DNA of 64,000 nt. Source: Pseudobdellovibrionaceae bacterium (GTDB lineage Bacteria > Bdellovibrionota > Bdellovibrionia > Bdellovibrionales > UBA1609). The notes beneath the pieces were generated by a model that worked only from the letters and a program-made list of their open reading frames with translations, had not been told where the DNA came from and did no database searches. Location of the stretch: positions 1-64,000 of the forward strand of contig CANEZP010000015.1 in the NCBI GenBank assembly GCA_947444305.1, read 5' to 3'. Positions 40,212 to 43,962 of this stretch are shown here, piece after piece (the stretch's first letter is position 1; each line of letters opens with the position of its first letter). The translations under genes and the position numbers were made by a program.

Positions 40212-40230
40212 TTTAGCGATCGGAAGATTG

Positions 40231-40998
40231 ATGACCCGCGGATTCGCTTTCGTTTTATTTGTTTCGACATTTCTTAGTTTTCAAAATTGCGCGAAGGCGA
40301 GCTTCACCACCTCGGCGGCGAGCCTCGCGTACCAAACGTGCACCCAACAACTCGGCACCACCGACTTCCCGATCAAAGTTTTGTTCGTCGCGGACACCTC
40401 CGGCTCGAACGCGGGAACGGGCGGGTCTGATCCGGCCAAGCAAGTGCGCGGTGGATCGATCAACGAGTTTTTCAATACTTACCGCGCGAAAACGAATTTT
40501 TCGTGGGGCTTTTTAAAGTTCAGCGGCTCGACGGCCTCAAGCTTTATCGGCAGCACCGCCAATCCGACCTTTACGGCGAACACCACGGCGATGCAGTCGG
40601 CGCTAAGTTCGTTCTACACAACCTACGACGACGGCTTAACGCCCTACGCAGCGGCGCTCAATCTTACGCGCCAGACGCTGCTCAACGACGCCGTCTCCGC
40701 ACCCGCCGCGACGAAGTACGTCGTCGTATTTTTATCCGACGGCCTGCCCGATCCCGCCGTTTCGGATCCCGTCTTGAGTGCTTTGGTGCAATCGATTTCG
40801 ACCGTTCGTCCCGGGCAAGTTTCCTTTAACACGATTTATTACGGCGACGTTGATGCCGAAGCAAACGCACGCTTAAAGAAGATGGCGGCCGTCGGCGGCG
40901 GGCAATTTCTCGACACAAACGCTAGCGCTACCGGCAAAGATTTCGTAATCAGTGACGTCATTAACGTCGCGGGTTTAAACTGCGGAAGTGCAAACTAA
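40231..40998 (+). CDS. Lipoprotein with von Willebrand factor A-like domain
   Basis: 255 residues from ATG 40231; upstream extension is shadow coding. Lipobox SFQNC (Cys about 16). A VWA fold begins at about 45: FPIKVLFVADTSGSNAG, with MIDAS DTSGS, followed by a strand-helix pattern (WGFLKFSGSTA, then ATKYVVVFLSDGLPDPAVSD with a third MIDAS Asp). Ends with a short Ser/Asn tail. It overlaps the PAP2 gene by 11 bp. This is the second VWA lipoprotein in the window besides the one in the Glt-like operon. Adhesion or surface interactions are possible. Confidence 0.75.
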   Translation: MTRGFAFVLFVSTFLSFQNCAKASFTTSAASLAYQTCTQQLGTTDFPIKVLFVADTSGSNAGTGGSDPAKQVRGGSINEFFNTYRAKTNFSWGFLKFSGSTASSFIGSTANPTFTANTTAMQSALSSFYTTYDDGLTPYAAALNLTRQTLLNDAVSAPAATKYVVVFLSDGLPDPAVSDPVLSALVQSISTVRPGQVSFNTIYYGDVDAEANARLKKMAAVGGGQFLDTNASATGKDFVISDVINVAGLNCGSAN

Positions 40999-41860: not shown

Positions 41861-41942
41861 TCCAGCCTCGAGTACAAATGAAATCTATTTATACGCAGCA
41901 TTTCTTTTCCGGAATTTAAACAGAGCGTCGCGATTCTCCGAA

Positions 41943-41995
41943 AGGCGCTCCGTACCCGGTGGGGTACGGAGCACCTCGTAGGGTACGGAGCGCCT
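41943..41995. repeat. Inverted repeat with two alternative 3' arms
   Basis: The arm AGGCGCTCCGTACCC (41943-41957) can pair with GGGTACGGAGCACCT (41962-41976, one mismatch) or with GGGTACGGAGCGCCT (41981-41995, perfect). The two right arms are direct repeats 19 bp apart. This gives two mutually exclusive hairpins between the PAP2 gene and the convergent Aat-like gene. Confidence 0.8.
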
Positions 41996-42013
41996 AATTT
42001 TCTGGGAGTGGGG

Positions 42014-42043
42014 GGCGCCTCCAGCAGTGGGGAGCGCCTTTTT
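42014..42043 (+). terminator. Rho-independent terminator after PAP2 gene
   Basis: GGCGCCTCC (42014-42022) pairs with GGAGCGCC (42031-42038) with one bulged C, and TTTTT follows at 42039-42043. It lies about 150 bp after the PAP2 stop. The T-run overlaps the stop codon of the convergent gene. Confidence 0.6.
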
Positions 42044-43850
42044 ATCGGAAGCCCCAGCCGTTGACTGAAATGGTTGGTACCGGGGCGGCGTCGTCCCAGG
42101 TTGGGGAGTCGGCAGTGACTTTGAGTTCGAGGACGTCAAGAAGCTGTTTTAGCGGAATCGATTTACGCGCGTCCGGGTGACGAGCGCTGCCGATGAAATA
42201 CGCTTTAACGTTCGCGGCGTCCGGACCGGTTAGGGCCATCCGCAAAAGATCGAGGGTGCCGACCATGGGGCCGTAAGCCTCGGAATTATTCTTAACCGGG
42301 GCCATGCGCGCGGCGTGCAGCAGATTTGCGGGAACGCCTTCGATATAGACCGGCAACTCGGCCCACGATTTATCGGCGACGTGCGCGGCGGCCTGCGCGG
42401 CGCTTTCGACGAAAACCAAATTCAATTGGCCACGGATCAAACCCGCGCGTTCGGCGGCGGCTTCGGCCGCGGGGCCGGACACGATGGGCGATCGGCGCGT
42501 GATCTTCATGCTGCCGAGACCTTGATTTTTACGTTTCGCAACTTCGTTCAAAGCCGCATCGAGATCTTCGCTCGTACGCGGGTCCCACTGGTCGGGCAGC
42601 TCGATCAACCCTGCCGGACCGCCTTTAATCTTCGTTAGATATTCACGAAACGGAATCAACTCGGCACCCATCGACGCCGTGTAAGGCGTGATCATACCGG
42701 GATCGGAGTAGGACATACCGGCCGCGTCCAGCGCGTCGAACAAAGCTAGGGCCGCAACTTTCGCATGTTCAACCTTGTCGTAAAAAACCGAATCGCCATA
42801 CAGATGGTTACCGTCGCGAAAACCGATTTCGCCGGCGATCAATTCGCCACGCCCGTTATAAAGACCGACCGAGTATCCTTTTCCGGCGTTCAACATGTCC
42901 AAGGCCGTCTGGTAAACCGGTTTTTCTTTGTAACGGCTTCTTTCCGGACCTTGGCTTTTACGTTCACCTTTGATGAGGCTGCCGTCGTCGGCAACTTCTT
43001 GCTCACGGTAAGAGCGGGTTTGATTTACGATCTTATCGAGCATCCACTCGTAATCGATATTGAAGCGAACGGTGTGTCCGCTGTCGGCTAACGTGCGCGC
43101 AAGTTTGCGCAGCTTAACGGCCTCGGCCGAGTGCTTCCAGGTCGAATAGTCATGGATCCCGTGCATCTTGAATCCAACCCAACCCGCAAGGGTGACTGAG
43201 TTCTTACCGAAGGCGCCCGGCAGGTGACCGGACTTGTGGTAGGTCATGCCGGTCAAGGTGATGTGACGTGCGAGATGTTCGGGCGTGATGGTTTTGACAT
43301 TACCCAGGTGATCAATTTCGTAAGCGCCACGCGAGAACATGTGGCGAACTTTTTCTTCCGGAAGTTTGTACTCGATCTCGTCACCTTCGAACTTGTGTTC
43401 GAGCTCTTCTTCCGAGCCGATGATGTATTGGCCCGACGCAATCACGTCGGTGAAGGTGGTGCCCTTCGCTTCGTGGAGCCGGCGTGCCTTCATGCGATGC
43501 TCGATCGCTTCCTCAAGACTCGATGCGAAGTTCCACTTCATGCCCCACCAGATGAGGCCGTGCTTCATTGCGATTTCAATATTTTCGGGCGTATGCGCCA
43601 CGCTGGGACCGAAAAACCCGCGCACACCAAGCGCATCATCGTGATTATCCATGTAGGACTTAAAGACCGCATCGACGTTCTCCTTGATGGAGCCCTCGAG
43701 CAAATAATTACACAGCGATTTTTGTAGCTGAGAGAGATCAGCTGTTCCGGCGGCCGAAGAATCGGTTGTAGAAGCAGAGTTCGCAGAATCCGTTGCCGCA
43801 AAAGCAGCGCACGAAAGCATCATGACGAGAACGAAAATTGTGTTACGCAT
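42042..43850 (-). CDS. Exported protein with leucyl/phenylalanyl-tRNA-protein transferase (Aat)-like domain
   Basis: 602 residues from ATG 43850 (GTG 43865 is an alternative). Clear signal peptide (RNTIFVLVMMLSCAAFA, cleavage AFA-A). Residues about 85-110 (TPENIEIAMKHGLIWWG) recall the Aat N-terminal segment. Residues about 260-275 have HTVRFNIDYEWMLDKIV. Residues about 325-415 match the Aat GNAT core closely: YSVGLYNGRGELIAGEIGF, LYGDSVFYDKVEHAKVAALA, and ITPYTASMGAELIPFREYL. A further 180-residue C-terminal domain is not recognised. Normal Aat is a 230-residue cytoplasmic enzyme of the N-degron pathway, so export implies a different substrate. A wider GNAT (Fem-like) enzyme is the alternative. 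Confidence 0.7.
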   Translation of the reverse strand: MRNTIFVLVMMLSCAAFAATDSANSASTTDSSAAGTADLSQLQKSLCNYLLEGSIKENVDAVFKSYMDNHDDALGVRGFFGPSVAHTPENIEIAMKHGLIWWGMKWNFASSLEEAIEHRMKARRLHEAKGTTFTDVIASGQYIIGSEEELEHKFEGDEIEYKLPEEKVRHMFSRGAYEIDHLGNVKTITPEHLARHITLTGMTYHKSGHLPGAFGKNSVTLAGWVGFKMHGIHDYSTWKHSAEAVKLRKLARTLADSGHTVRFNIDYEWMLDKIVNQTRSYREQEVADDGSLIKGERKSQGPERSRYKEKPVYQTALDMLNAGKGYSVGLYNGRGELIAGEIGFRDGNHLYGDSVFYDKVEHAKVAALALFDALDAAGMSYSDPGMITPYTASMGAELIPFREYLTKIKGGPAGLIELPDQWDPRTSEDLDAALNEVAKRKNQGLGSMKITRRSPIVSGPAAEAAAERAGLIRGQLNLVFVESAAQAAAHVADKSWAELPVYIEGVPANLLHAARMAPVKNNSEAYGPMVGTLDLLRMALTGPDAANVKAYFIGSARHPDARKSIPLKQLLDVLELKVTADSPTWDDAAPVPTISVNGWGFR

Positions 43851-43962
43851 GTGGGTTGCTAACACACCGCCCGCAAAAATCGCAAGGTTAGCTGAAAAAA
43901 TACCAGCCCCGTCGGCACAATAGGCATGCGTGACCCGCTCTACCTATGTTAAATAGCCCGCC

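Follow-up and report, generated by a model that had tools for sequence, protein, structure and literature searches.

A diverged relative of leucyl/phenylalanyl-tRNA-protein transferase with a predicted export signal in a Pseudobdellovibrionaceae bacterium

Background

A stretch of 64,000 nucleotides from the genome of a Pseudobdellovibrionaceae bacterium (assembly GCA_947444305.1, contig CANEZP010000015.1, positions 1 to 64,000; hereafter the window) encodes a protein of 602 residues that is a homologue of leucyl/phenylalanyl-tRNA-protein transferase (Aat), has an Aat-type fold and starts with a predicted Sec-type signal peptide. Aat moves leucine or phenylalanine from charged tRNA onto proteins with an N-terminal arginine or lysine, and, to our knowledge, has been described only in the cytosol, as part of the N-degron pathway. 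Relatives of it with export signals are strange, because charged tRNA is not expected outside the cell. We tentatively propose, giving it somewhat less than an even chance, that the window protein is an exported and strongly diverged Aat paralogue whose site of action lies beyond the cytosol of its producer, most plausibly in a place that offers the aminoacyl-tRNA of another cell. Exported relatives with a full aminoacyl-tRNA site would imply either a tRNA-dependent modification of proteins directed against other cells or a donor for this fold outside the cytosol.

No paper describing exported Aat relatives was found in the literature searched, which left most subscription journals outside its coverage. 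The passages of the lipocone paper (PMC12419801) that were consulted give no description of exported Aat, and Aat occurs only in the title of a reference.

Methods

Signal peptides were called by an in-house hydropathy rule (charged start, hydrophobic core, A-x-A-like site) and not by SignalP. The distribution of Aat relatives was surveyed in two overlapping sets, one with 141 genomes from the order and one with 369 from the phylum. The window protein was modelled with AlphaFold2 from an alignment of 3 rows, made of the window sequence and related loci only. A maximum-likelihood tree was built from 39 rows and 270 columns; the full alignment A1 was too diverse for a pattern search. Residue numbers of the Escherichia coli enzyme were taken from sequence alignments. 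The survey of a cysteine motif, C-x-x-[LIVMAF]-[LF], used samples from the genome of the window (G000) and from G050 (loci L121-L160 and L183-L222), and the motif was picked after the data had been seen.

Results and discussion

Residues 316-400 of the window protein match the family PF03588 (Leu_Phe_trans) with 40.5 bits (E 2.5e-10), above the gathering cut-off of 22.7; the score of 30 bits against the Aat equivalog TIGR00667 lies far below its cut-off of 143.55. A phmmer search of the PDB sequences with the single sequence as query had E. coli Aat as its sole match (E 3.5e-4), which a profile of ten relatives recovered with an E value of 1.5e-13. Comparison with Aat-type sequences by hhalign gave 99.9% (E 2.9e-33) in an alignment that begins at G223-W224. 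The AlphaFold2 model has a predicted local distance difference test score (pLDDT) of 51.2, modest because of the 3-row alignment, and reaches about 70-88 in most blocks of the core between residues 240 and 380. When this model was searched with Foldseek, the best solved structures were all E. coli Aat (E 2e-6), and VIA-align superimposed 165 residues on E. coli Aat (2dps) at 2.9 A with a Z score of 17.3. The next fold matches were aminoacyl-tRNA-dependent peptide synthases (Z 12.1), FemX (Z 11.0) and L-PGS (Z 9.8), and the window protein had no Pfam match to the FemABX and MprF families at the thresholds used.

The gene and the parts of its product are as follows.

42042..43850, minus strand: gene of the Aat-like, putatively exported protein of 602 residues (open reading frame, PF03588 and PDB sequence matches)
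43797..43850, minus strand: Sec-type signal peptide, about residues 1-18 (MRNTIFVLVMMLSCAAFA; n-region +1, core hydropathy 2.88)
43698..43712, minus strand: cysteine box C47-NYLL (CxxxL/F), with the sole cysteine past the signal (sequence)
43539..43637, minus strand: segment of about residues 72-104 (ALGVRGFFG...HGLIWWG), set against the Aat N-terminal AYxxGIFPW (sequence alignment only)
43185..43538, minus strand: insertion of about 120 residues (about 105-222), a trait of long forms (alignment)
42576..43184, minus strand: Aat-type GNAT core, about residues 223-425 (Pfam, profile, hhalign, structure match)
42045..42572, minus strand: C-terminal domain, about residues 427-602, predicted alpha/beta (found in no relative)

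A GTG at 43865 is an alternative start that would add 5 residues. The insertion sits between the GIFPW-type segment and the GW-x-x-x-x-x-G motif at residue 223; it is missing in canonical Aats and in a short exported kind described below, and its sequence varies between long forms. The C-terminal stretch of about 175 residues has no relative in 59 genomes apart from a chance-level match (E 0.026), and modelled alone it reached a pLDDT of 44, too poor for a fold search.

These results bear on a first-pass annotation of the gene, made from the letters of the window. Its reading of the protein as an Aat homologue was borne out, the fold search placing Aat first and giving no different fold, and so were the Sec-type signal and the extra C-terminal domain, which is unique among the 59 relatives. 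It had put the Aat core at about residues 260-415; the core is real, with wider limits of about 223-425. The 240-residue N-terminal region that it described does contain a large extra stretch, but residues 72-104 or so align with Aat, so that the real extra N-terminal part is the insertion of about 120 residues. The architecture, which it had called the most unexpected in the window, holds as to signal, insertion and C-terminal domain; the protein is nevertheless one of a family of exported-looking Aat relatives and not a one-off.

The N-terminus (MRNTIFVLVMMLSCAAFAATDS) has a single arginine followed by a hydrophobic core with a mean hydropathy of 2.88, and no lysine or arginine in the next 20 residues, which indicates a Sec-type signal with the N-in/C-out orientation. 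The same rule was passed by all 11 long and by 6 of the 7 short exported forms, thus by 17 of the 18 exported forms tested, and by none of 25 canonical Aats, so that the signal is not a start shared with ordinary Aat. Positive charges precede the core in every protein that passed; the sole short form that failed has a hydrophobic start nonetheless, and further members read outside the 18-protein set have the same kind of start. All 18 exported forms carry a C-x-x-x-[LF] box some 3-30 residues past the signal, and in 8 of the 11 long forms its cysteine is the only one after the signal. Exported forms have 1-2 post-signal cysteines, compared with 3-5 in most canonical Aats, as is expected of proteins outside the cytosol. 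The box is ruled out as a lipobox by its position: Cys47 follows the residues KSL and lies about 28 residues past the signal.

Five PF03588 genes were found in G000, one for an ordinary, signal-less Aat of 224 residues (locus L001) and four for exported-looking proteins: a form of 291 residues on contig C6, at about 180731-181588, and long forms on C21, on C2 and in the window, that of the window being the largest and most altered. The long form on C2 adjoins the ordinary aat. The canonical Aat leaves the housekeeping role covered in this genome. The two exported kinds, one short with about 290 residues and one long with 390-700, recur in the 59 relatives. In the survey of order and phylum the long forms were sporadic and often several per genome, while nearly all of the genomes surveyed had one canonical Aat. 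Long forms were read in G000 (3), G002, G009 (3), G015 (two loci and a contig-end fragment), G023 (3 in tandem), G050 (2), G098 and G362 (2), and short exported forms in G000, G001, G003, G019, G036, G044, G050 and G124. Identity among long forms is 25-31%. Their multiplicity, with three per genome in several species and a tandem array in one, suggests a diversifying set. A scan of named genome contigs with a four-sequence alignment found only two long forms, both in Bdellovibrionales bacterium Ga0074137 (G050); the same contigs gave no relative with the single sequence P0001, and no relative was found in viral contigs.

In the tree the long forms make up one clade (100/99) and the canonical Aats another (95/87), with the short forms between them. 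A single origin of export is therefore possible, and the long branches leave the detail uncertain.

Two loci of the family deserve mention in their own right. At L070:3871-7823 three long Aat-like genes lie in tandem, all of them with a signal and a cysteine box. L224:1560-3644, in family f8, is an open frame of 694 residues with a signal and two degenerate copies of the Aat-like core; other genomes of this family have only the canonical Aat.

The donor site was compared at W49, W111, E156, D186 and Q188 of E. coli Aat, which we take to be its donor-site residues. The corresponding positions in the window protein are W102, R306-Y307, D353, D383 and G385. Hence W102 and D383 are kept and D353 is a conservative change, whereas the W111 site has Tyr307 and the Q188 site Gly385, so that the full set is not present. 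W102 is invariant in the alignment and lies in a part of the model with a pLDDT below 50. The short forms keep all five sites, with one change of W49 to tyrosine. Among 11 long forms, W49 and an acid at 156 are kept in all and D or N stands at 186; the Q188 site has glycine in 8, glutamine in 2 and glutamate in 1, and the W111 site has arginine followed mostly by tyrosine or phenylalanine, or by another residue. A Lys/Arg-rich helix (KHSAEAVKLRKLARTL) in the core of the window protein falls, in the alignment read by eye, at the position of the tRNA-facing helix of Aat. Judged by these residues, the pocket of the window protein is altered and not destroyed, and the invariant glycines, an RG-type motif and the core pattern argue against random decay of the long forms.

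The window gene stands alone, flanked by a deaminase on one side and, on the opposite one, by a PAP2 phosphatase and a lipoprotein of the vWA type; its neighbours include no wall or lipid genes.

40228..40998, plus strand: lipoprotein-like vWA protein (homologue adjoins the long form of G002)

This homologue (L067:2651-3397), from another species of the same genus, has 35% identity (E 2.4e-40), and the vWA protein is possibly associated with the long Aat-like gene. Just downstream of the window gene, positions 41940-42035 contain repeated GGGTACGGAGC-type segments that look by eye like inverted repeats and are possibly a terminator.

Some other proteins near Aat relatives or in the same genome bear a signal and a similar box. 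Beside the long form of G002 lies a RimJ/RimL-type GNAT protein (L067:4233-4898, minus strand; PF13302, E 1.4e-20) with a signal and a GECASLLL box, and G000 encodes a class I methyltransferase (L144, G000:C6:51689-52453, minus strand; PF08241) with a signal and a KCAELL box. A DUF4258 protein with signal and box, which matches BrnT below the threshold, is encoded beside the short form of G000 and has a 27%-identical counterpart in the same place in G003; both loci (L073:5585-6268 and L075:4156-4833) are convergent with the short Aat form and have an ACExLL box. In the two genomes surveyed the box is enriched close to the mature start of exported proteins (13/214 versus 11/1070 in later stretches, p 2e-5), in good part through the Aat relatives. 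It also marks a small share of exported proteins of other families and is strongest in G050 (7/47, three of these being Aat-like). As a general tag of exported proteins it was rejected, being present in 8 of 208 non-Aat exported proteins of at least 280 residues in the two genomes and in 0 of 44 in a third. We regard the box as a lead and not as an established result.

Homology, fold, the signal-type start, the distribution of the family and the changed residues are results of the analysis; that the window protein is exported, enters another cell and acts as a catalyst, and with which donor and acceptor, we infer. It belongs to a lineage-specific group of putatively exported Aat relatives. The Sec-type signal would take the protein from the cytosol of its producer to the outside, where it would fold as a GNAT domain of the Aat/FemX type bearing the insertion of about 120 residues and its private C-terminal domain. 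The ancestral chemistry outside the cell would have been aminoacyl transfer from an aminoacyl-tRNA-like donor, which the short members suggest since they keep the Aat active site and the basic tRNA-facing helix. Such a donor would be found only in the cytoplasm of another cell or in material from a lysed one. In the long members, the window protein included, the pocket has since changed, so that they probably act with another donor or acceptor. The first-pass annotation had held that an exported Aat-like enzyme would need another donor or acceptor, with peptidoglycan, a protein N-terminus or prey proteins after secretion as candidates. Another donor or acceptor is likely for the window protein, with its altered W111 and Q188 sites, and too strong a demand for the family, because the complete donor site of the short members suggests that aminoacyl-tRNA or just its 3' end could still serve as donor somewhere beyond the cytosol of the producer. 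The exported Aat relatives, the GNAT protein and the methyltransferase presumably depend on aminoacyl-tRNA, acetyl-CoA and S-adenosylmethionine respectively, as their families suggest, and the simplest common site for them would be another cell or its remains, where these cofactors exist. That the Aat-derived and other box-bearing exported enzymes enter other cells and use the aminoacyl-tRNA of the target to modify target proteins, for instance with an N-terminal Leu/Phe degradation mark, is a speculative extension that we consider improbable.

Several points weigh against our main reading, an exported Aat paralogue acting outside the producer. The signal prediction comes from one in-house hydropathy rule; the active site of the long forms may be inactive; without the Aat relatives the box is found in 8/208 versus 11/1040 (p 0.007), which makes it a weak delivery tag. 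Moreover, none of 44 exported proteins has the box in 400 kb of a closed genome of about 4 Mb from family f8, of the same order and probably a Bdellovibrio, and most genomes of this family carry only the canonical Aat. A link to classical Bdellovibrio-type predation is therefore not supported by the distribution.

The loss of the Gln188 and Trp111 side chains in long forms also fits a reuse of the Aat fold as a non-catalytic, exported binding domain for peptide N-termini, RNA or nucleosides, as do the diversity of the long forms, their gain of unrelated domains and the relative at L224 with two degenerate copies. We consider this unlikely, with perhaps one chance in a few, since every one of the 11 long forms retains W49, an acidic side chain at 156 and Asp or Asn at 186, along with other invariant columns, and since the short forms look fully active by their residues.

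The same changed pocket sites could instead belong to a periplasmic or surface enzyme that modifies the producer's own envelope with a non-tRNA donor, such as an aminoacyl lipid ester or a small activated amino acid. Sec export alone would deliver it to the periplasm, and the structural matches that follow Aat include the envelope-modifying proteins FemX and MprF/L-PGS, which share the fold. FemX and MprF, however, act on the cytosolic side with aminoacyl-tRNA and so cannot serve as precedents for an exported donor; the donor site of Aat is complete in the short forms, and wall or lipid genes are lacking beside the window gene. We therefore hold an envelope enzyme to be rather improbable. A cytosolic accessory Aat, whose hydrophobic N-terminus would be an uncleaved anchor or untranslated, is very unlikely: downstream start codons exist and signal cleavage is a prediction from sequence, but of the 18 exported forms, drawn from two subfamilies, 17 have a signal-type N-terminus with a positive inside end, against none of 25 canonical Aats, the cysteine box between signal and domain is conserved in all 18, and post-signal cysteines are few (1-2 versus 3-5 in most canonical Aats).

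Comparison with known systems

The reading of an exported Aat paralogue is best set beside Aat itself (E. coli; PDB 2dps, 2z3k and 2cxa; PF03588, TIGR00667), with which the window protein shares the core at 223-425, the fold (Z 17.3) and the W49, acid 156 and D186 sites. It differs from Aat by its signal, cysteine box, insertion of about 120 residues and extra C-terminal domain, by glycine at Q188 and Arg-Tyr at W111, and by a score far under the equivalog cut-off. FemX/FemA and MprF/L-PGS have a GNAT-type fold with lower scores (Z 10-11), face the cytosol and, in the comparisons made here, are less similar than Aat in sequence and fold. The peptide synthases Sba18 and Sbb17 (PDB 9wqy and 9wqw) are second to Aat by fold (Z 12.1) and are evidence that small molecules can serve as acceptors for this fold, but no sequence match to the window protein was found for them, and they are not described here as exported proteins. 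Finally, the exported GNAT protein (L067:4233-4898) and the exported methyltransferase of G000 belong to enzyme families unrelated to Aat, and resemble the window protein in combining a signal and a CxxLL box with a cofactor-dependent enzyme of a cytosolic type.
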